Shown here piece after piece: positions 43,247-60,005 of a stretch of DNA of 64,000 nucleotides. The DNA comes from Armatimonadota bacterium (GTDB lineage: Bacteria > Armatimonadota > UBA5829). Position numbers and translations under genes: made by a program. The number at the start of each line of letters is the position of its first letter. The stretch's first letter is position 1. The notes under the pieces were generated by a model. The model had not been told where the DNA came from. It worked only from the letters and a program-made list of their open reading frames with translations, and did no database searches. The DNA lies in the NCBI GenBank assembly GCA_023474015.1, contig JAMCYN010000165.1:1-64000 (forward strand), in the 5' to 3' direction.

Positions 43247-43519
43247 GGGAAGGGAGGGCTTAAGCCCAATAGTCCCAGCAATTACATCACCGGAGCTTTT
43301 GGGAGAGAGAATCTTTGTATTCAGTTGTTTGGTGGAGGAGACGTTACCTCCGCAAGAACATTCTCCGTTTTTCTCCAGTCCAAAGAACAGCAAGAAGGCA
43401 GACAGCCTGCTTGCCACCGTCAAAAGGGCCGACTATGCTACCTGGACAATTCATCATAAGGGCTGACAAGTAATACTTGCATGTCTCTGTTACACTGGTA
43501 ATCAGGGAAGGTGATCATC

Positions 43520-44869
43520 TTGAATTGGGTTGACAAAGTAACAGAAGCGATTGCCTACATCGAGGATAATCTATTTGAGCCAATATCCGCTGAATCTGTG
43601 GGCAAAGCGATAAACTACGCTCCATCTTCGTTCTCCAACATTTTCAGCGCTATTACCGGATACTCCGTAGGTGAATACATTCGCTTCCGGCGTTTGTCAT
43701 GGGCGGCGGGCGAGCTTGAGAAGGGCAAGCATTCGGTTACCGAACTGGCGTTTGAGTGTGGATATGAGACGGTCGAAGCTTTCTCCAAAGCTTTCAAGCG
43801 TCTGTTTGGTTGTCCGCCTTCCAAGACAGAAGACTCAGGATATCATAGCTTCTCTCCCATATCTATTGAGTTCAGACTGTTAGGAGGATTCACCATGAGA
43901 AGGAACCTGATACCAGATTTGTTGAGGGTGGACTGGTCGGATACCCAGAGGCAGAACGAGTTCGTCAACAGCGTCGTCTCGGCGCTCAACGCCCTCGGAG
44001 AGAAGATCGACTATGATTATGTCTGCGCGGTTTCGGGAAATGCATTCCGCACTTCCTTCTCAATGCCGTCAGTGAACAGGTGGAATCATGGCAACTATCA
44101 CGTCATTAACACGCCAATCGTTATCGAGCACACGTTCAGAATGCTGGGCTATAAGGTATCGCACCACGTTCGGGGGGACCGCGAGGCCGACAGCAGGCTT
44201 ATTATGGACAGCATAGACAGGGGCGTTCCCGTCATCACGCTTGAGGGTGTGATCAGCTGTGCTGACGCTTGTGTGATCTCTGGGTACGACAACGATGGCG
44301 CCGTGCTTCTTGGTTACAGTCCGTTCATGTATATTGAGGACGACCATAAAGAAGCGCCGGACGATACGGGTTACTTCAGAAAATCAGACTGGCACAACGG
44401 GTTCTTTGCGAAAGCCAACGGAAGAATACTCATCATTGAAGGACCATGTGAGAAGCCTGACACGAAGGCCGTATTTGCAGAAACTCTAAAGCTGATCTCA
44501 CGCCTTATCCGAGAGGAAAGCCTAGCGCCAGGTCAGTATAATGGCCTGGCCGCACACAAGGCTTTCGCCGATGCATTGCTGACTTATACGTGGGACGACA
44601 ATTTCGAGCCGTACCTCAATGTCATGTGCAACGAGAAGCAATACTTGGACAGGCAATACGCTGTGAAATTCTTCCGGGATAACGACAGAGGGGACCTGGC
44701 TGATCGTTATGAGGAGATAGCGGCACTTTCCGCGAAGCTGATGCAGATTATCCCGCAGGATTTCTCCGCATCCGATATGTTCAGTGACAAAGATAAGCTG
44801 AAACCGTTCTGCGATGTATTGCTGCAGATACGCGATTTGGAAGAGAAAGCGCTTGCTCTGCTTGACTGA
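43520..44869 (+). CDS. AraC-type DNA-binding domain fused to a BtrH/C39-like domain
   Basis: 449 residues from TTG 43520, with GGAAGGTGATCATC upstream, which suits this start better than GTG 43511. Residues 1-100 are the two-helix-turn-helix AraC/XylS DNA-binding domain, placed N-terminally (PISAESVGKAINYAPSSFSN; VTELAFECGYETVEAFSKAF). From about 120 the sequence resembles the peptidase C39-like/BtrH N-terminal fold: YDYVCAVSGNAFRTSF, GVPVITLEGVISCADACVIS, VLLGYSPF. Such fusions occur in Firmicutes. Base composition is lower in GC than its neighbours, suggesting transfer. The 43247-43509 gap before it shows no clear promoter. Confidence 0.85.
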   Translation: MNWVDKVTEAIAYIEDNLFEPISAESVGKAINYAPSSFSNIFSAITGYSVGEYIRFRRLSWAAGELEKGKHSVTELAFECGYETVEAFSKAFKRLFGCPPSKTEDSGYHSFSPISIEFRLLGGFTMRRNLIPDLLRVDWSDTQRQNEFVNSVVSALNALGEKIDYDYVCAVSGNAFRTSFSMPSVNRWNHGNYHVINTPIVIEHTFRMLGYKVSHHVRGDREADSRLIMDSIDRGVPVITLEGVISCADACVISGYDNDGAVLLGYSPFMYIEDDHKEAPDDTGYFRKSDWHNGFFAKANGRILIIEGPCEKPDTKAVFAETLKLISRLIREESLAPGQYNGLAAHKAFADALLTYTWDDNFEPYLNVMCNEKQYLDRQYAVKFFRDNDRGDLADRYEEIAALSAKLMQIIPQDFSASDMFSDKDKLKPFCDVLLQIRDLEEKALALLD

Positions 44870-45036
44870 CAGTATTTTGTTGTTCCGTTGCACCTTTGGA
44901 CTCGCCCAGAGAACATTCGAGAGAAAACAGAGAAAACTGCGCGAAAGAGAACCGGTTAAGAGCGTTTTGGGGCAACATCCTCCTCCACCCAGTCCAATGG
45001 AGCTTGTCACAGAATCGGGCGCCATATAAAGCAAAA

Positions 45037-45067
45037 CCACGCTCACATCATCACAACATGAGCGTGG
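45037..45067 (-). terminator. Hairpin with T-rich tail in the 44.87-45.26 kb gap
   Basis: CCACGCTCA (45037-45045) and TGAGCGTGG (45059-45067). On the minus strand it is followed by TTTTGCTTT. Second of two terminators for the cytochrome operon. Confidence 0.7.
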
Positions 45068-45177
45068 TGCAGTTCATATGCATGAACATTAATAAGTCCC
45101 GAATATGTTGGAGCACCGGAACTCGAACGCGGGTCCAAGAAAGAGTGATCGCAGAGTCTCGCCCTCCCAAAATCAAG

Positions 45178-45204
45178 CGAGAGGACAGAAATCCTGCCCT
45201 CTCG
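45178..45204. terminator. Bidirectional hairpin between AraC-like gene and cytochrome operon
   Basis: CGAGAGGaCAG and CTGcCCTCTCG pair around AAATC. Followed by CCATTTTT on the plus strand and CTTGATTTT on the minus strand. It ends the cytochrome operon and can also stop read-through from the left. Confidence 0.75.
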
Positions 45205-45261
45205 CCATTTTTCCCTATATTCGATTCCGACCCAGCGCACTGCCGGTCCTGAGTCGCTTAC

Positions 45262-47064
45262 TTAGTTGTCGCCGTGACACATCTTGCACTTAGACGCTTC
45301 GTGGCACTTCAGACACACGGAGCCGGACTTGCGGCTTGCCGCCTTCGAGTTCTTGTGCTCCATGGTCCAATTCGACGGATGAGGCATCTGCAGGCCGCCG
45401 TGACAGTTGTCACATGACTGCTTCGAGTGGCACTTCCCGCACGAGTTCGGCGATTTCTTGCCCGCGTCCCCGTGCTTCTTGCGCCAATCGCCGCCGTGTG
45501 ACAGAGGCATGGTGGAGCTGTGGCACGCGTTGCAGAATACCTTGGTATGGCATTCCTCGCACTTGTTCGAGCGCCGCGCTTCCGAGCCGTGGTTTCTTAC
45601 CCAACCCGTAGAGTGGCTCGATGGCCGGTTGCCGCGGTGGCACGAGAGGCAGAAATCCCGCTCGTGACAGCGCTCGCAGAGAGCGCGATTCTTCTTCGCA
45701 TAGGTCGGGTGCTTCTGCCGGAAGTCCTTGGCATGCGGCATCGCCATCCCGTGACATGTGTTGCACGCCCCCGGGGTGTGGCAGGTGTTGCACGCCTTCA
45801 TGCTCATCTTCGCCTGGATCGGGTGCAGCTTGACCCAGTTGACCTGATGCGACGCAGGTTTCTGCTCCCGATGGCATTTCAGGCAGAAGTTGGAATTGTG
45901 GCACTGCTGGCAATTAGCATCGGTTCTCGATACTTGTTCGCCATGCATACGCAGCCAGGTCGCGTGAAGGTGCGAGGACGGTGTCTTGCCCTTGTGGCAA
46001 TTGATACAGAAGCTCTCCTCATGGCAGGTCTTGCAGTTGCCCGGGTTCGCGTTCGCCGACTTGGCATGCTTTGTCACCCAGTCCTCGGGGTGTGGGCGGT
46101 AGCGAGCATGGCAGTCGGAGCAGAATGTCCGCTCGTGACATTGATCGCACGCGGCCGGGTCGCGCCTGAACTCTTCCTGGTGCCTGTTCATCCAGCCCAG
46201 CTTGTGGGCCTGCTTGATCTGGTGGCAGTCCGAACAGTACGTGTCGGAGTGGCACGTTCGGCAGTCCTGCTTCTTCTTATTGAACGCCTCGGGATGCTGC
46301 TCCACCCAGTTGGCCGGATGGGGCGTGGACATACGGTGACAGTTGTCGCAGAAGTCCGACTGGTGGCAACGCTTGCACGATTCCTTATCCCCCGCGACCT
46401 CCTGCTTGTGGCCGGCCACCCAGTCCTTGCTGAAAAGCCCCGGCTTCCGGATGCCGAGAGTCTCATGGCACAATCCGCACGTGTTGGGGACCTTCTTGCC
46501 GTCGTGGCACTTGAAACACGTTTCCATGGCCGGGGTGTTCTTGGTGGACGCGTTCTCGCCGTGAACGACGCGAGAGTGGCAGAACGTGCAGCCAACCCCC
46601 ATCTCCCAGTGCTTCTTGTGCGTGATCTTCAGCCCATGGTAAACCACGATATCCCGGGCCTCGGTGTGGCACTTCTTGCAGTTGACATCCGGCACGTGGC
46701 CCTGGATCTCATGGGGCTTTACGTTACCCTTTACATGCAGGTAAACCAGCCTCAACGCCGATATCTTCGATTTGACCATGTTGGTCATGCCCGGCATGAG
46801 GTGGCATTGCTCGCATTCGACATCTTTGTGTGATGACATCCGCCACGTGGTGCACTGCACCTTCATCTCATGGCACGACGAGCAGAAAACGGACCTGTTG
46901 GTTACCGCAATGCCCCCGACGGAGCCAAGGCCGATAACCGCGATGACCAGGAGCACGACCCATAGGCTGATTGTCTTACGGAGCAAAGGTATCGTCACCT
47001 TCGACCGCAGCCTTTCCTTTATGCCCCGTCTAAACCCACTCAGCCCTATGTGAGGAAACTTCAC
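45262..47064 (-). CDS. 26-haem NapC/NrfH-like membrane-anchored multihaem cytochrome c
   Basis: About 600 residues from GTG 47064 (AAGGAG nine bases upstream; TTG 47070 is the alternative). One N-terminal membrane helix (LWVVLLVIAVIGLGSVGGIA) is followed directly by FCSSCHEMKVQ, the quinol-dehydrogenase start of NapC/NrfH. I count 26 CxxCH haem sites. The first six are irregular. The other twenty form ten pairs of the exact pattern CxxCH-x4-CxxCH, spaced about 38 residues apart. Each repeat is followed by a W-x3-H element (NWVEQH, GWMNRH, DWVTKH and so on) that could supply a distal haem ligand. It would form a long periplasmic haem wire fed by the membrane quinol pool or by the neighbouring cytochrome b. 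Confidence 0.93.
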   Translation of the reverse strand: MKFPHIGLSGFRRGIKERLRSKVTIPLLRKTISLWVVLLVIAVIGLGSVGGIAVTNRSVFCSSCHEMKVQCTTWRMSSHKDVECEQCHLMPGMTNMVKSKISALRLVYLHVKGNVKPHEIQGHVPDVNCKKCHTEARDIVVYHGLKITHKKHWEMGVGCTFCHSRVVHGENASTKNTPAMETCFKCHDGKKVPNTCGLCHETLGIRKPGLFSKDWVAGHKQEVAGDKESCKRCHQSDFCDNCHRMSTPHPANWVEQHPEAFNKKKQDCRTCHSDTYCSDCHQIKQAHKLGWMNRHQEEFRRDPAACDQCHERTFCSDCHARYRPHPEDWVTKHAKSANANPGNCKTCHEESFCINCHKGKTPSSHLHATWLRMHGEQVSRTDANCQQCHNSNFCLKCHREQKPASHQVNWVKLHPIQAKMSMKACNTCHTPGACNTCHGMAMPHAKDFRQKHPTYAKKNRALCERCHERDFCLSCHRGNRPSSHSTGWVRNHGSEARRSNKCEECHTKVFCNACHSSTMPLSHGGDWRKKHGDAGKKSPNSCGKCHSKQSCDNCHGGLQMPHPSNWTMEHKNSKAASRKSGSVCLKCHEASKCKMCHGDN

Positions 47065-47070
47065 TCTCAA

Positions 47071-47865
47071 TTACTCCTTTCGGTCCGCTCCCTGGAACGG
47101 CAACGCATCCTTGGTCTCCCGATTGACATCCACGCGCTCCCGCTTGACTTCTTCCTTTTCCCGCGCGGCGGCCTCTCGCTCCATGATACGCGCATACTCG
47201 ATAGGGTGCAACGTTTTCATCTCATGCTCGGATATCTCGCCGTTCAGCCATACCCGGCTCATCGGGAAAACCTCCGGGTTAAAGTGGACGTGGTAGAAAT
47301 GCCAGATGATGATCGCCAGAAACGCAAGCAGTGCCTCGTAGCCGTGTATCACCTTGGCCACATCGAGCGTCCATTTCGGCGCAAGGGCCATTGCCTGTTC
47401 CTCGAACCAAAGGAGGAACCCCGTCGCGATCATTACCACCGATCCCCACGCCAGCGCGAGATACTCGAACTTCTCGATGAAGTTGAACCGGTCGAACTGG
47501 GGCGGCTTGGGCGCCAGGCCGAAGTAGAACTTCATCATGTGCACGGCGTCGAACGCGTCCTTTAAGTTCGGCGCGAGGGCACGAAGTTCCGACCTGCCAT
47601 GGCGGCTGAGCACCATGTAAAACAGGTGATAGATAGTCAAGCAGATCAATACCGTGGCGGCCATCCGGTGGATTGCCGACCTCATCGTGAACCCGCCCAG
47701 CATGTGGATGATTCCCGACGCGGCGGGCGACGAGGAAAAGGTTACCGGAAATCCCGTCAATACCAGCGTGAAGAAACTCGTCATGAGAACGATGTGTTGG
47801 ATGCGCTGATTGAGCGTCATTCTCCTGAAGTGGCGCTCAGGCGCCATAACTGATGCGTCCGTCAT
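47071..47865 (-). CDS. Cytochrome b561/formate-dehydrogenase gamma-like diheme membrane subunit
   Basis: 264 residues from ATG 47865 (GAGGAGGTCATCAGAA upstream), sharing ATGA with the preceding stop. Four membrane helices with histidines placed as haem b ligands: RIQHIVLMTSFFTLVLTGFP, SAIHRMAATVLICLTIYHLFY, and near the C-terminal side KVIHGYEALLAFLAIIIWHF, YHVHFNPEVFPMS. The last segment is typical of FdhI/gamma subunits. It should exchange electrons between quinone and the two multihaem cytochromes encoded on either side. A long charged cytoplasmic tail (EAAAREKEEVKRERVDVNRE) is unusual. The next start codon follows its stop immediately. Confidence 0.9.
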   Translation of the reverse strand: MTDASVMAPERHFRRMTLNQRIQHIVLMTSFFTLVLTGFPVTFSSSPAASGIIHMLGGFTMRSAIHRMAATVLICLTIYHLFYMVLSRHGRSELRALAPNLKDAFDAVHMMKFYFGLAPKPPQFDRFNFIEKFEYLALAWGSVVMIATGFLLWFEEQAMALAPKWTLDVAKVIHGYEALLAFLAIIIWHFYHVHFNPEVFPMSRVWLNGEISEHEMKTLHPIEYARIMEREAAAREKEEVKRERVDVNRETKDALPFQGADRKE

Positions 47866-49148
47866 TTCTGATGACCTCCTCTTCTCCAAGGTAATCGACC
47901 GATCCATCGGGCACGCAGGTCCAGGATTATGTAGCCACAGAATGAACCTATCAGCCCGACCACAAACAGCATGTAGAACGCGCGGACCCAGAACACGACC
48001 GCGTCGTGCTTAGGCGTGGGTACCACGTGGATCGAACCGACCGCGAAGTTCTTGCTTGCTCCTGGGTGGCACTTGCCGCAAGTCGTCGGCAGGTTTTTCT
48101 TACTGATCGCCGACTTCGGGTCGCTTGAGGGCAGCACGTCGTGCGCCCCGTGACAGGTGGAGCAGTTGGCAACCGTGATGTCTCCGTACTTGTTCGCGAC
48201 ACCATGGTAGCTGCTTATATATGAGGATAGCCGGTTAGCGGGCAGGCCGTACTTGCGTTGTATCTTGATATTCTCGTGGCACTTGGAGCAGGTGGCCACG
48301 ACGTGCGTGGGGTAGACGGGTGACTCGGGCTGCGACTGCGCCATGATGAGATGCTCGCCGTGACAATCGTTGCACACGGGGGCGCTCTTCACGCCTTTCG
48401 CGGCGGCCTTGCCGTGAATGCTTGCCTCATACTGCTTGAGGACCTCTTTGTGGCATCCTCCGCACGTACTTGGCAAGTGCGACCTGCTGACTGACGAAGC
48501 CAATTCTTTCGGCGCTCTTATGTCATGCACTCCGTGGCAATCGGTGCATACCGCCGCGGTCTTGAGCCTGTTCTTGAGGACAGCAACCCTCGCGTGCACG
48601 CTGTCGGTGAAACTCTTCACGCTAAGCAGTTTGTGCCTCTCGTTAAAAGCCGCGTCAAAGTGGCATTTGCCGCAGGTCTTCGGTATGTTTTCCCGGCAGA
48701 TGGTGGACTTGGAGTTGCTCGCGGGCCTGATGTCGTGGGTGCCGTGGCAGGTCTTGCAGGCAGGAGCGTCCGGGTCACCTTTTCTTAAGGCGTCTCCGTG
48801 CACGCTGTCCGCATACATGTCGATATGCGAATGGTCAGGAGCGCCGACTTGATTGCCGTTATGGTGACAGCGCGCGCAGTCGACCGGCTCGGCCGACTGC
48901 TTGTGCGGCATCTTCTGTCCCTGAAAGTCCGCGTGGCAATCGACGCATCTCTTGCCTTTATGGGCTGAAGCTGCCAGAAGGTCCGCGTCGACGAAGAGTG
49001 ATTTCTCCTTGCCCTCGATCCCCGCCTGGCGGAAACCCGGTGCGCTGTGGCACGTCAGGCACGCCAGGTCCGCGGCGCGCAGCCGCTGAGCGCCCGCAGT
49101 TAAGCCTAGCAACACAGCCAGAGAGCAAACTACCAGGTTACGAGCCAT
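47862..49148 (-). CDS. 11-haem cytochrome c with C-terminal membrane anchor
   Basis: 428 residues, first gene of the operon, ATG 49148 (GTG 49151 alternative) after AAGGAAAGGG. A cleavable signal peptide (VVCSLAVLLGLTAGAQRLRA) is followed by 11 CxxCH motifs, several in the recurring form CxxCHGxHDI(R/L)P (CKTCHGTHDIRP, CTDCHGVHDIRA, CSTCHGAHDVLP) alternating with T-C-G-K-C-H sites. A final helix (AFYMLFVVGLIGSFCGYIIL) and basic tail anchor it to the membrane, leaving the haems in the periplasm. This resembles cytochromes next to cytochrome-b subunits in anaerobic or metal-reducing respiratory chains. The terminal donor or acceptor cannot be read from sequence. Confidence 0.92.
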   Translation of the reverse strand: MARNLVVCSLAVLLGLTAGAQRLRAADLACLTCHSAPGFRQAGIEGKEKSLFVDADLLAASAHKGKRCVDCHADFQGQKMPHKQSAEPVDCARCHHNGNQVGAPDHSHIDMYADSVHGDALRKGDPDAPACKTCHGTHDIRPASNSKSTICRENIPKTCGKCHFDAAFNERHKLLSVKSFTDSVHARVAVLKNRLKTAAVCTDCHGVHDIRAPKELASSVSRSHLPSTCGGCHKEVLKQYEASIHGKAAAKGVKSAPVCNDCHGEHLIMAQSQPESPVYPTHVVATCSKCHENIKIQRKYGLPANRLSSYISSYHGVANKYGDITVANCSTCHGAHDVLPSSDPKSAISKKNLPTTCGKCHPGASKNFAVGSIHVVPTPKHDAVVFWVRAFYMLFVVGLIGSFCGYIILDLRARWIGRLPWRRGGHQK

Positions 49149-49310
49149 CACAAATCCCTTTCCTTAAACTAAGTGCGTAATTTCACAAATGCTCTCACAC
49201 GTCGTGTCCCTTGCAGGGATCGATACTGAGCACGTTTCATCGCTATAATCACGATCAGCGCCGTGCCAGGCGCTTACGGCGCGCCCGGATGTTAAGTGTA
49301 TCACTAACTT

Positions 49311-49326
49311 TGTGAAGCTATTCACT
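49311..49326. promoter_or_regulatory. CRP/FNR-family operator-like palindrome upstream of the cytochrome operon
   Basis: TGTGA-AGCTAT-TCACT matches the CRP/FNR-family pattern TGTGA-N6-TCACA at nine of ten positions. It lies 163 bases before the first cytochrome gene. A second, overlapping TCAC-N6-GTGA arrangement is at 49301-49314. The rest of the 49152-49560 gap has no gene. Confidence 0.5.
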
Positions 49327-49560
49327 AACCCCTTCACGCTACTTGCTCCGAATGTGCAGGAGATTACAGGTGGGGAGAGGACTATGCACTTACTTGTCCA
49401 ATTGAGACATGCTGGGCTTCGCGTCCACAAAGCTCCTAATTATTGTATTACCCGGACGCAAACCGACAGAAAACGCAAAATTACCGCTCACGCCATCCAG
49501 ACACTCTACAGTACCAGTCTATACGCATTTATACAGTATGTCAAGACGTTCTTAAGCGTT

Positions 49561-50680
49561 CGGTCGTGTCAACTGAAGTGTGTAAATTGGTTTTTGCTCC
49601 TGTCCCGCGATTTGCCTATTCCGTTCTATGCGGCCAGTGCTATACTGCTTGTCTTTTTTGCTTTCCTGGCACGTTGCTGCCAGATGTCTTTGCCTTTCCA
49701 AATTCGGTTAAGTCATAAGAACACCCCGAATACGATTCGGTCTGACTGGTCGCGGTTTGCGAAAGCGCCGCAGCCAAACCGGCGTCGTCTGAGTTCCACG
49801 AACACTCGCTCAATTGGATTGGAGGTTCGCAGATACTTCCAGTGCAGCTCAGGGCAGTCGTAGAATGAGAGCAACTGGCCCAAGTCTTCCTCCACGCTGG
49901 CTACCACGTTCGGATACTTCACGAGCCACTTGACTTTCCATGCTCTGAACGCACTTTTCGCCGCAGTCTTATGAGCGGCTGCGTAGATCGCTCTTAGACC
50001 TTCTATCATAGCGGAGCGGTCACTCTTGTCGACAGCCTTGAAGATATTGCGCGCCCGGTGTGCCCAACAAAGCTGGTGACTGACATCCCCGAATACCTCC
50101 GCCGCTGCTGCCGACAGTCCTTTATGCTCATCGGAAATCACCAACTTGAGCAACCGCGGGTCCAACCCGCGTTCACACCCGACTGGCATTGATGCCAACG
50201 ATGTCTTTAACCCAAGCGGCATCAAGGAAAAGATAGACATAACGGCCTTTCAAACGCCGCTCTTTGAACGACTTGGCTTGCCGGTCCAAATCCTCCTGCA
50301 CCCGAACTATAAGCTTGTCGGATGGACGACAGCCCGTCGTCTCCTCCATGAACCGAATGATGTCGGCACGGTGCATACCAACCAACAGGGCCTTGGAAAC
50401 CCACTCCTCTACCTCAGATATCGCACGATGTCCCGCGCCGCTCCACCTCCGAAAGGGCGATCCTCTCAAAAAGACACTTTATCGCATCCGCCATGGATGC
50501 GTCCAGATCGCCATAGAGTCGATCTTCCGGATCGCTCACCAAATCACGCGTTTGCTCCATTACTTGCTTCAGAGTTATACTTGCCATAATGCTCCTCTCT
50601 CGTCGGTTCGTTCTGTTCAAACAAACTCTACGAGATCAGGAGCATCTCTTGCAATTTACACACTCAAAGTATACGCCACC
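49561..50680 (-). mobile_element. Degenerate IS256-family insertion sequence
   Basis: The ends form an imperfect inverted repeat: left GAAGTGTGTAAATTG...GCTCCTG and right (reverse complement) GAGTGTGTAAATTG...GCTCCTG, sharing GTGTGTAAATTG exactly (49578-49589 and 50652-50663). The element is about 1.1 kb, shorter than the usual 1.3-1.5 kb, and its transposase is broken. A smaller relic of the same element lies at 5859-6128. No target duplication is evident. Confidence 0.85.
49713..50587 (-). pseudogene. Broken IS256-family (Mutator-like) transposase
   Basis: Three reading frames are needed. The N-terminus MASITLKQVMEQTRDLVSDP runs from ATG 50587. A central piece includes SEVEEWVSKALLVGMHRADI and RYVYLFLDAAWVKD with the first catalytic Asp. 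The C-terminal piece includes LVISDEHKGLSAAA with the second Asp, HQLCWAHRARNIF, and LRTSNPIERVFVELRRRR with the catalytic-Glu region. About 100 bases of the usual sequence between the first and second catalytic segments are missing. Not functional. Confidence 0.88.
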
Positions 50681-51883: not shown

Positions 51884-52744
51884 CTACGCCTTGATGGCAC
51901 TTATCTTAATACTCGATACCCTCCCGGCCAGGCTGGGCGCAAGGCTGGCGAACTCGTCGGGAATCGACTCCGTTTCGCAGACAATCGCGCTGATCGTCTG
52001 CTCGTCGTAGTCGATCCGGGCGACTATCTCAACATCCGAGAATCCAGCCCCACGGATGGCGTCGAGATAATCATCCTCTTCAAGGGCGCCCGCGACGCAG
52101 GATGCCCAAGCTTCTAGACTTCGGCGAATCTCCTCCGGCAGGTCGTGGGTCACGATGTCCGAGACCAGTATCCGTCCACCCGGCCGCAACACTCGGTAGG
52201 TTTCTCCGAACACCTTCGCCTTGTCCGGCGCGAGGTTGATCACGCAATTGCTGATAATCCAGTCCACCGTGGCCGACTCGACCGGCATGTCCTCCGCATC
52301 TCCCAGGCGGAACTCGACGTTTGTCGCGCCCGCGTCGGAGGCGTTTTTCTTCGCCGCCTCGATCATCTCCGGGGTCATGTCAAGGCCGATCACTCGCCCA
52401 TCCGGGCCGACTTTCCGCGCGGCCAGAAGCACGTCGATGCCCGCGCCGGAGCCGATGTCGAGCACTGTCTGGCCCGGTTGGATGCCGGCCAGGGCCACCG
52501 GGTTGCCGCAGCCGAACGAATGCTCAGCCGCATGCGCGGGCAGCCCCGCAAGCTGCTCTTCGGTATATCCCGCCGATAGCGCGATCTTCGCATCGACCTG
52601 CGCGCTCGTCCCACAACAGCACGAGCATGGAGCGGGTTCTTTGACTCTGCCGCCGTAACGCTCCTTCACGAATTCCTTGATCTCTTCCGGCCGCACGGTG
52701 GCAGCCTCGCTTGTCCCGCAACAGGATGTCTTCTTGAATACCAT
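51884..52744 (-). CDS. arsM: Arsenite S-adenosylmethionine methyltransferase
   Basis: 286 residues. Methylates arsenite to volatile or less retained methylarsenicals. The SAM site VLDIGSGAGIDVLLAA and the three arsenite-binding cysteines of ArsM are present: Cys79 (SFGCGNP), Cys167 (ISNCVINL) and Cys216 (WASCVAGAL). Extra Cys clusters at the N-terminus (SCCGTS; PCSCCCGTS) are common in bacterial members and may help capture As(III). ATG 52744 follows AAAGGAGCAACAAAA. It is the second gene after the Cys-rich MarR regulator on the same strand. Confidence 0.95.
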   Translation of the reverse strand: MVFKKTSCCGTSEAATVRPEEIKEFVKERYGGRVKEPAPCSCCCGTSAQVDAKIALSAGYTEEQLAGLPAHAAEHSFGCGNPVALAGIQPGQTVLDIGSGAGIDVLLAARKVGPDGRVIGLDMTPEMIEAAKKNASDAGATNVEFRLGDAEDMPVESATVDWIISNCVINLAPDKAKVFGETYRVLRPGGRILVSDIVTHDLPEEIRRSLEAWASCVAGALEEDDYLDAIRGAGFSDVEIVARIDYDEQTISAIVCETESIPDEFASLAPSLAGRVSSIKISAIKA

Positions 52745-52832: not shown

Positions 52833-53291
52833 CTAGGCCATTGCGGCAATGAGCTTCTCCACGATACGACGAAGCTCAGACTGCTCATCTCGGTCCAGGA
52901 CGCCATCGAGCCTCATCCCACAGCACCCGCCGTGCGGGACACCGTTCCACACCTCTTGACCCTTCTCGGTCAGACCCAGGAGGATCACTCTTCGGTCCTC
53001 GTGGCTGCGCTCGCGCTTGACCAGACCGTCACGTTCCAGGCGATCCACTATGCCGGTAACGTTGCTGCAAGCGCAGCAGAGACGTTCGCTCAGCCTGTTG
53101 AGGGGAATCTCACCCTCCTCGGACAGAACTGTCAGTATCTCAAACTGCGAAGGTGTCAGGCCATAGGCGGCGAGAAACCGATCAGCCTGCTTGTACATAG
53201 CCTTGCCGAGTGCGATACACAGGTCCGAAAGGTCTCCGGTCTTCACATTTGGCTTGCACTGGCACATCTCGAAAAGCATTCCCTTAAGCAC
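52833..53291 (-). CDS. Cysteine-rich MarR-family regulator of the arsM locus
   Basis: 152 residues (GTG 53291; ATG 53279 and ATG 53267 are in-frame alternatives). The winged-helix core is visible as LTPSQFEILTVLSEEGEIPL, LSERLCCACSNVTGIVDRLE and the wing KRERSHEDRRVILLGLTEKG. Unusually for MarR it has three cysteine groups: CQC near the N-terminus, CCAC inside the DNA-reading helix region, and GGCCG in the C-terminal helix. These are plausible As(III)/thiol-reactive sites. It likely represses itself and arsM and is released by arsenite, by analogy with other metalloid sensors. An operator-like palindrome overlaps its start. Confidence 0.85.
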   Translation of the reverse strand: MLKGMLFEMCQCKPNVKTGDLSDLCIALGKAMYKQADRFLAAYGLTPSQFEILTVLSEEGEIPLNRLSERLCCACSNVTGIVDRLERDGLVKRERSHEDRRVILLGLTEKGQEVWNGVPHGGCCGMRLDGVLDRDEQSELRRIVEKLIAAMA

Positions 53292-59141: not shown

Positions 59142-60005
59142 ATGGCAACACTAAGGGATTATTTTGATACTGACAATAGCGATGCGCTGAGGCTGAACAA
59201 CCAGGTGGCTCTGGCCAACGACCAACATAGCACTCTTGATATCCCAGTGAGAATGCATGTTGATTTTCCATCGCACGCAAAGCACCTGTCATTCTTCATC
59301 GCGTGCGAGGCATCTGTAGAGTGGGCGTGCGTTGGCATATTGGAGAATCTAGCTCATGTAATATCTATATTTGATGCCATCAACATCGAACAGGGCTATC
59401 TGACAGACATCAAGAAGTCTCTTCAACAGATCCCCTTTACGAATAATGTTACTTTCTATGTGGATCAGTTCATGAATCTTGATTTGAAGGAAAGATTACA
59501 TCAATTGGGTGGAAGCGCCGGCATTTTTGTGCAACTCCGAGATCGGAATTACGTAGCAGCTAGGCTGGAGATCGAGCGCCCCGTTGCGTTTATCAGTTAC
59601 GACTCCAGAGATAAGGATGAGATTGCTCGTCCCATCGCTTTTGAGCTTGTGCGGCGTATGCAAATGGTCTGGTTTGATGAGTTCTCTCTCAAGGTTGGTG
59701 ATAGCCTGCGCGGAAGCATCGAGAAGGGGCTCAAAGAGTGTGGTAGGTGTATCCTGATCCTCTCTAAGAACTTCCTCTCGAATGAAGGCTGGACGAAGAC
59801 AGAATTCAACTCAATCTTCACACGCGAGATCATTGAGAAGCAGTATTTGGTACTACCCGTTTGGGTTGATGTGACACAGAAAGACGTGTACGAATACAGC
59901 CCTTCCCTTGCAGACAGATTCGCGACCAACTGGAGCAAAGGGGTGGAAAACGTGGCTGCTGAGCTAACAGGGGCACTTCTAGCCGAGAGGCAACACCGGG
60001 ATTAG
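59142..60005 (+). CDS. TIR-domain protein with an unrecognised N-terminal domain
   Basis: 287 residues from ATG 59142 (GAGAGGTATGCT upstream). Residues about 147-280 form a bacterial TIR domain: RPVAFISYDSRDKDEIARPI, MVWFDEFSLKVGDSLRGSIE, CGRCILILSKNFLSNEGWTK. Glu221 in TKTEF corresponds to the NAD-hydrolysing glutamate of catalytic TIRs. The first 140 residues have no known motif; they may sense a trigger. The gene is richer in A and T than its neighbours and stands alone beside tandem repeats, consistent with horizontal acquisition. Bacterial TIR proteins often serve in antiphage defence by depleting NAD or making a signal from it; that role here is inference. Confidence 0.87.
   Translation: MATLRDYFDTDNSDALRLNNQVALANDQHSTLDIPVRMHVDFPSHAKHLSFFIACEASVEWACVGILENLAHVISIFDAINIEQGYLTDIKKSLQQIPFTNNVTFYVDQFMNLDLKERLHQLGGSAGIFVQLRDRNYVAARLEIERPVAFISYDSRDKDEIARPIAFELVRRMQMVWFDEFSLKVGDSLRGSIEKGLKECGRCILILSKNFLSNEGWTKTEFNSIFTREIIEKQYLVLPVWVDVTQKDVYEYSPSLADRFATNWSKGVENVAAELTGALLAERQHRD

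Follow-up and report, generated by a model that had tools for sequence, protein, structure and literature searches.

A three-gene multihaem operon of an Armatimonadota bacterium encodes a cytochrome with a NapC/NrfH-like head and ten di-haem units

Introduction

Quinol dehydrogenases of the NapC/NirT/NrfH/CymA type usually carry four or five haems (PMC12285233; here and below the literature is cited from excerpts), ImcH homologues possess three membrane helices and 6–10 haem motifs, and CbcL is a single polypeptide whose homologues contain 3–23 haem motifs (PMC6295460). Here we describe a locus related in parts to these systems, which lies in a stretch of 64,000 nucleotides from an Armatimonadota bacterium (contig JAMCYN010000165.1, assembly GCA_023474015.1; hereafter the window). 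Its three genes, designated A, B and C, encode an 11-haem cytochrome, a b561-type cytochrome b and a 26-haem cytochrome in which a NapC/NrfH-like head is followed by ten periodic di-haem units, the haem wire. The arrangement had been singled out in an earlier annotation made from the sequence alone (the original prediction). We consider it rather probable that the operon is a quinol dehydrogenase whose covalent periplasmic wire feeds extracellular electron transfer.

Two further proteins are comparable. The PCC3 multihaem cytochrome is built of repeats, has 22–39 residues per haem and, as has been proposed, could reach from one membrane to the other (PMC5566968). C shares with PCC3 the repeats, the many haems and the few residues per haem, and is set apart, by description, in that its quinone-linked head is fused, whereas in PCC3 the inner-membrane protein is separate; the PCC3 cluster comprises a porin and extracellular and periplasmic multihaem cytochromes as well as that inner-membrane protein, whereas the window cluster consists of A, B and C only. 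A 20-haem putative Q-oxidase of Carboxydothermus ferrireducens has a membrane-anchor domain and a proposed role in quinol oxidation (PMC7829351), and may be likened to C, by description only, as an anchored multihaem protein. Its host is Gram-positive, unlike the window host, and the excerpted description gives no repeat layout. Multihaem and MtoAB-like genes have already been reported for Armatimonadota metagenome-assembled genomes (PMC9671151), and searches of open-licence PMC papers gave no description of a protein that joins a periodic di-haem wire to a NapC-type head, nor of head-swapped forms. Even for Geobacter, the route of electrons through the periplasm is not settled. According to a 2025 review (PMC12307469), a mutant without PpcA–E and PgcA gave wild-type-like current, from which unidentified trans-periplasmic paths are inferred, and anchoring of nanowire cytochromes in both membranes, or an interface with both, is put forward as a possibility. 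The C family offers a concrete, sequence-defined candidate for a fixed path in a little-studied phylum, and relatives of C are common in environmental genomes.

Results and discussion

Gene C joins a NapC/NrfH-like head to ten di-haem units

The N-terminal part of C is characterized by one hydrophobic segment and by six CxxCH motifs (residues 63, 86, 131, 161, 185 and 198), the first of which is extended to CxxCHxM (residues 63–69). Residues 34–171 match PF03264 (NapC/NirT) with 38.5 bits (gathering score 24.1), and the head aligns to NrfH (PDB 2j7a chain C, E 4.2e-8), in agreement with the NapC/NrfH-like membrane start that had been predicted. C63, C66, H67 and M69 of haem 1 are invariant in 32 aligned homologues, and the Met, presumably a ligand of this haem, aligns to that of NrfH. 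With its single N-terminal anchor, CxxCHxM first haem and PF03264 head, C resembles the NapC/NirT/NrfH/CymA proteins, but it has 26 haems in place of four or five and scores 41.3 bits against the NrfH equivalog TIGR03153, below the cut-off of 134.2, which rules out a standard NrfH. ImcH of Geobacter, a partly NapC-like multihaem quinol oxidase of the membrane that acts in extracellular respiration, is ruled out by the one hydrophobic segment of C and by its 26 motifs, arranged in periodic di-haem units, and CbcL by the lack of any cytochrome b family on C, the b-type cytochrome being the separate gene B.

The wire consists of ten exact CxxCH-x4-CxxCH units that start at residues 232, 270, 308, 346, 387, 427, 465, 504, 544 and 586, with successive spacings of 38, 38, 38, 41, 40, 38, 39, 40 and 42 residues; the ten copies predicted at about 38 residues are thus present with a period of 38–42. 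Units 1–9 are each trailed by two or three further His. The W-x3-H that had been expected after every unit follows eight of the ten, whereas unit 6 has F-x3-H and the last unit, of 17 residues, has neither. This gives 23 residues per haem overall and ~18 in the wire. In the alignment of 32 homologues the majority of haem Cys and His vary little or not at all, and this conservation, together with a layout common to 65 sequences (see below), rules out a chance clustering of motifs. A frameshifted remnant is likewise ruled out, as the reading frames of A, B and C are all open in the window. With regard to frameshifts in closely related genomes, named in the original prediction as a sign against it, an internal stop occurs in one of the 28 family match rows of the phylum genomes, in a protein with a bc-type head (G211; G-, L- and P-numbers denote genomes, loci and protein relatives, respectively).

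The wire recurs behind different heads

A protein search with C returned 391 relatives at E ≤ 0.001, and 120 among the matches listed were examined. When a headed relative is taken as one with five or more exact x4 tandems and, within its first 110 residues, a CxxCHxM, 64 of the first 68 listed matches show both head and repeats, the combination not being seen in P0054, P0060, P0062 and P0066. These 64, which include incomplete sequences (P0053 is labelled partial), make 65 headed sequences with C of the window. They contain 18 to 32 haems (an even number in 60 of the 65; 28 and 26 are commonest) and 5 to 13 units, with six haems ahead of the first tandem in 59. Each of the 506 inner units (terminal units left out, gaps of more than 60 residues dropped) has two or more His that are not part of a CxxCH, 433 of them exactly two, and 453 contain an aromatic-x3-His; a unit of ~40 residues thus seems equipped with the ligands for two bis-His haems. 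Relatives that have public names are mostly called NapC/NirT family cytochrome c, tetraheme-type subunit or hypothetical protein. The suggestion that the layout belongs to no named family is supported in that a profile search of C against NCBIfam reached no model at cut-off. C is not a one-off, as it has at least 64 relatives, and those with a name are mostly named after the head or called hypothetical.

The wire alone (C residues 232–602, E ≤ 1e-20) retrieved 61 proteins, for which the precomputed Pfam lists hold PF03264 in 47, a bc-type cytochrome b in five and neither in nine. A b561 head precedes 7 wire units in P0071, and bc-type heads precede 7 units in P0072, P0074 and P0136–P0139 and 4 units in P0150. 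By Pfam, bc-type heads on the wire are also found in G004, G012, G208 and G209, and proteins of G211 and G234 resemble this layout in haem position. In L007, L011, L016, L098, L100 and L102 the wire follows an N-terminal hydrophobic stretch, and a NapC-type first haem is lacking. Head and wire are separate modules, and because the wire is found with three types of quinone-linked enzyme, an electron conductor is its most plausible reading. A portable di-haem unit of this kind could serve as a template for designed molecular wires. At L013:12583-14706, L099:127-2226 and L106:124-2454, as in P0072, P0074, P0136–P0139 and P0150, bc-type cytochrome b is accompanied by a mono-haem c domain, both fused to 4–7 wire units.

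Genes A and B lie directly upstream of C

The minus strand encodes A, B and C, each of which abuts or overlaps the next (Table 1). The predicted order, an 11-haem anchored cytochrome, a cytochrome b with an ATGA overlap and a 26-haem cytochrome at the next codon, is borne out by the open reading frames (ORFs) and motif counts. Gene A starts at GTG 49151, with an ATG at 49148; an internal ATG of gene B (47865) is a possible start and forms ATGA with the stop of gene A; TTG 47070 of gene C is the codon right after the stop of gene B, and GTG 47064, two codons later, is an alternative start that is better placed behind AAAGGAG. By hydropathy, A has two hydrophobic segments, a signal-like N-terminal stretch and a C-terminal anchor. 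It scores above the Pfam gathering scores of Cytochrome_C7, Paired_CXXCH_1 and Cytochrom_c3_2 and is 41–56% identical to 8 aligned relatives. B matches Ni_hydr_CYTB (PF01292) with 49.6 bits (cut-off 30.1) and contains no CxxCH; its His 38, 80, 94, 188, 203, 208 and 234 are invariant in 10 aligned sequences, and these seven would be consistent with b haems. A sequence search of solved structures gave one zinc-finger match for A (E 0.035) and none for B. CbcBA is made up of a b-type and a multihaem c-type subunit. A and B resemble CbcL/MtrH/MtoC and CbcBA in that a b-type cytochrome is joined with a multihaem c-type one, and differ from CbcL in that b and c are encoded by separate genes and C is added, although A–B fusions of the CbcL kind do occur in relatives.

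Conduit genes accompany C in many relatives

The neighbourhood was read at 17 loci at which the C match spans head and wire (L001–L010, L013, L109–L111 and L113–L115). CxxCHxM is present at 16 of these, L113 having CxxCHxK. In 14 of the 17, C is directly preceded by an A–B pair or A–B fusion, with one unassigned ORF between A and B at L001 and with fusions at L005, L109, L110 and L113; L114 and L115 show the same operon as the window, with a stand-alone 11-haem A, B and C. The pattern is broken at L009 and L013, where A–B is missing upstream, and at L010, where an A–B fusion lies downstream of C.

Genes for outer-membrane porins or cytochromes, for which a check of orthologous loci had been proposed, are present in many relatives. 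An MtrA/DmsE-like gene followed by a porin-like gene of ~540–555 aa is found near C at L002, L005 and L009, and decahaem–porin fusions of ~1000 aa in the C locus at L013, L109 and L110. The DmsE/MtrA-like decahaem model TIGR03508 is passed at cut-off by L005 and L013 and not reached by L002 and L009. The L002 porin scores 22.7 bits against MtrB_PioB, just under the cut-off of 23, whereas Pfam gives no match for the porin-like genes of L005 and L009, which are grouped with the others by similarity; a porin homologue search returned four proteins. An AlphaFold2 (AF2) model of the L002 porin from a 7-row alignment is a many-stranded barrel with a predicted local distance difference test (pLDDT) of 76.5 and a predicted template-modelling score (pTM) of 0.65. 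In the PDB it matches MtrB best, as chain 6r2q_B of the Mtr complex (E 3.9e-8, TM 0.48 by query, root-mean-square deviation 10.2), among 139 chains matched at E ≤ 0.001 that include TonB-type and LptD barrels.

The decahaem MtrA/DmsE-like and porin-like regions form one polypeptide of 975–1032 aa at L013:1792-4716, L109:3793-6891, L110:4324-7329 and L112:5346-8273, the first assigned by profile and the others by similarity to it. Other genes seen near relatives are L139:5022-6452, with a weak metallophosphoesterase match and a C554-type multihaem tail; L002:4405-6363, in which the tail of the UshA-like PCGU model is matched below cut-off; and L137:2176-6504, a cytochrome with 7 CxxC(H/K) motifs whose neighbours are ResB, NHL and cytochrome c assembly genes (Pfam), an arrangement that the cluster L109:7001-10298 resembles by layout only.

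At the genome level, all 13 genomes reached from C loci contain a TIGR03508 match (best E ≤ 1.4e-35), eight over the cut-off, whereas matches occur in 2 of 14 control genomes, none over the cut-off. Within a set of 291 genomes from the phylum of L001, 22 have a family match at E ≤ 1e-60. TIGR03508 is matched at E ≤ 1e-40 in 17 of these 22 vs 20 of the 269 others (Fisher 2.2e-13) and at E ≤ 1e-30 in 18 of 22 vs 75 of 269 (Fisher 7.8e-7), where the E ≤ 1e-40 threshold was picked after the list had been seen and the statistics ignore kinship. For genomes in which the match spans head and wire, a set of 16 that omits shorter headed proteins such as that of L097 (G225) and the head-like L141 protein (G234), the counts are 13 of 16 vs 24 of 275 (1.2e-10) and 14 of 16 vs 79 of 275 (3.7e-6), respectively. 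The decahaem match is on the contig of C in G002, G005, G007 (~20 kb off), G008 (weaker, 1.4e-35), G009, G012, G204 and G205. MtrB_PioB is matched at E ≤ 0.001 in only 15 of the 291 genomes, so that either the model misses most of these porins because of their divergence, or a porin is present in fewer genomes than the decahaem count suggests.

The operon itself is patchily distributed. The window tryptophanyl-tRNA synthetase (TrpRS) shares 87% identity with that of G240 and 79–82% with those of G246–G249, which are in the phylum of L001. C is matched at E ≤ 1e-5 in one of nine near relatives tested (G234), and G004, at a similar distance (TrpRS 71%) and outside this test, carries C. G240 has the trpS to lysA block in common with the window, and no DNA match to the operon was found in the two stretches compared.

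Proposed function of the operon

From the known roles of b561/multihaem modules and of NrfH and CymA, quinol oxidation may be ascribed both to A–B and to the head of C. B and the anchored 11-haem A would form one quinol-oxidising unit of the inner membrane, with a second quinol contact at the NapC/NrfH-like head of C. Taken up by this six-haem head, electrons would pass along the chain of ten covalently joined di-haem units, almost every one of which could supply its own two distal His, and the wire would bridge much or all of the periplasm. C could then pass electrons to an outer-membrane porin–cytochrome conduit, MtrA/MtrB-like in most relatives examined, the wire replacing or supplementing small diffusing cytochromes. 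The filament cytochromes OmcS, OmcE and OmcZ carry 6, 4 and 8 haems, respectively. With reported filament rises of 47, 34 and 58 Å (PMC12954529), these numbers correspond to ~7.3–8.5 Å per haem, from which the 20-haem wire of C is estimated at ~14–17 nm, the scale of the periplasm. More tentatively, one polypeptide might act as an anchored, periplasm-spanning wire from quinone pool to conduit that makes shuttles unneeded, the di-haem repeat being a portable domain on NapC-, b561- and bc-type enzymes and the unit number a length ruler.

Several observations weigh against this proposal. The haem-1 Met is missing in the relatives at L113 and L141, and the residue aligned to what we take to be the quinol-site Asp of NrfH is L108 (a residue of C, not a locus), so that quinol oxidation by C is something we infer. 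The bc-type heads are followed by only 4–7 units, and wire length is thus not always envelope-sized. The AF2 model of C (32-row alignment) has a mean pLDDT of 67.8 and a pTM of 0.36, and Foldseek gave no match to the PDB at E ≤ 0.001; the structure prediction asked for in the original prediction yields the anchor helix (residues 36–57) and does not show a linear haem chain. A model of such low confidence, a unit number that varies from 5 to 13 and members of 435 aa with only 18 haems would also suit a C that is chiefly an electron store, or a compact fold that does not span the periplasm. The strict period, the ~18 residues per haem and the two distal His per unit would suit an extended chain, and we regard a store or compact fold as very unlikely.

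Further points of the same kind concern the conduit. In G001, G003, G004, G010, G208 and G227 the strong decahaem match lies off the contig of C. In G230 and G231, which have an 11-haem A, B and C, the best decahaem match has an E of 7.9e-9 and lies within gene A itself. No CxxCH occurs in the other picked ORFs of the window besides A and C, and no porin family was found among the 33 window ORFs scanned with Pfam. The route that had been envisaged, from the quinone pool across the periplasm to an extracellular acceptor or another reductase, is partly supported, by the NapC/NirT head, by wires behind other quinone-linked heads and by the MtrA/MtrB-like genes of relatives, and is weakened by G230 and G231. 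The same two genomes and the lack of a porin match among the 33 scanned window ORFs would fit C and A feeding a soluble periplasmic reductase, as NrfH and NapC do, with the wire as a docking or branching bus, and the head indeed belongs to the family of such reductase partners (PF03264 and NrfH matches; PMC12285233). This is rendered unlikely by the decahaem and porin-like genes that co-occur with C, often on the same contig, in other relatives, and by the failure to recognise a respiratory reductase among the 20 neighbouring proteins scanned, a minority of all neighbours. G230 also has a multihaem–porin pair, in which an 8-motif MtrC/F-like gene (CxxC(H/K)) is directly followed by a Porin_O_P gene (L138:4984-7826).

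The conduit proposed for C could also be used inwards, with extracellular Fe(II) or another donor reducing the conduit and the head of C or B reducing quinone. Homologues of CymA and of CbcL/MtrH/MtoC are known from Fe(II) oxidisers as well as from Fe(III) reducers (PMC6295460), and MtoAB-like genes are reported for an Armatimonadota metagenome-assembled genome (PMC9671151). However, direction is not set by sequence, ImcH, a NapC-like relative in role, is reported only from Fe(III) reducers in the excerpts of PMC6295460, and we judge the inward direction improbable.

Coordinates and neighbouring genes

The terminator-like hairpin of Table 1 is to be read against a scan of 44900–49700 that gave 9 such sites, where 4.4 are expected from shuffles.

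Table 1. Features of the operon in the window
Feature	Position	Strand	Description	Basis
Gene A	47862..49151	-	429 aa, 11 CxxCH	ORF and motif count
Gene B	47071..47907	-	278 aa, b561-type cytochrome b, membrane	Pfam and invariant His
Gene C	45262..47070	-	602 aa, 26 CxxCH	ORF and motif count
C residues 35-57	46900..46968	-	Single N-terminal membrane anchor	One hydrophobic segment; AF2 helix 36-57
C residues 63-202	46465..46884	-	NapC/NrfH-like head, six CxxCH	PF03264 and NrfH alignment
C residues 232-599	45274..46377	-	Haem wire, ten CxxCH-x4-CxxCH units	Motif scan, repeat conservation
Terminator-like hairpin	45176..45206	-	14 pairs, downstream of C	Consensus scan only

Upstream of the operon lies a Mutator-family transposase split across two frames (49716-50240 and 50176-50469, minus strand), and an AraC-type helix-turn-helix protein with a long C-terminal part without Pfam match (43511-44869, plus) is convergent with it. 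Further along the window, a Cys-rich methyltransferase that presumably resembles ArsM stands beside a MarR-type regulator (51884-52744 and 52833-53291, minus), and a 287-aa protein carries a TIR domain at its C-terminus (59142-60005, plus).

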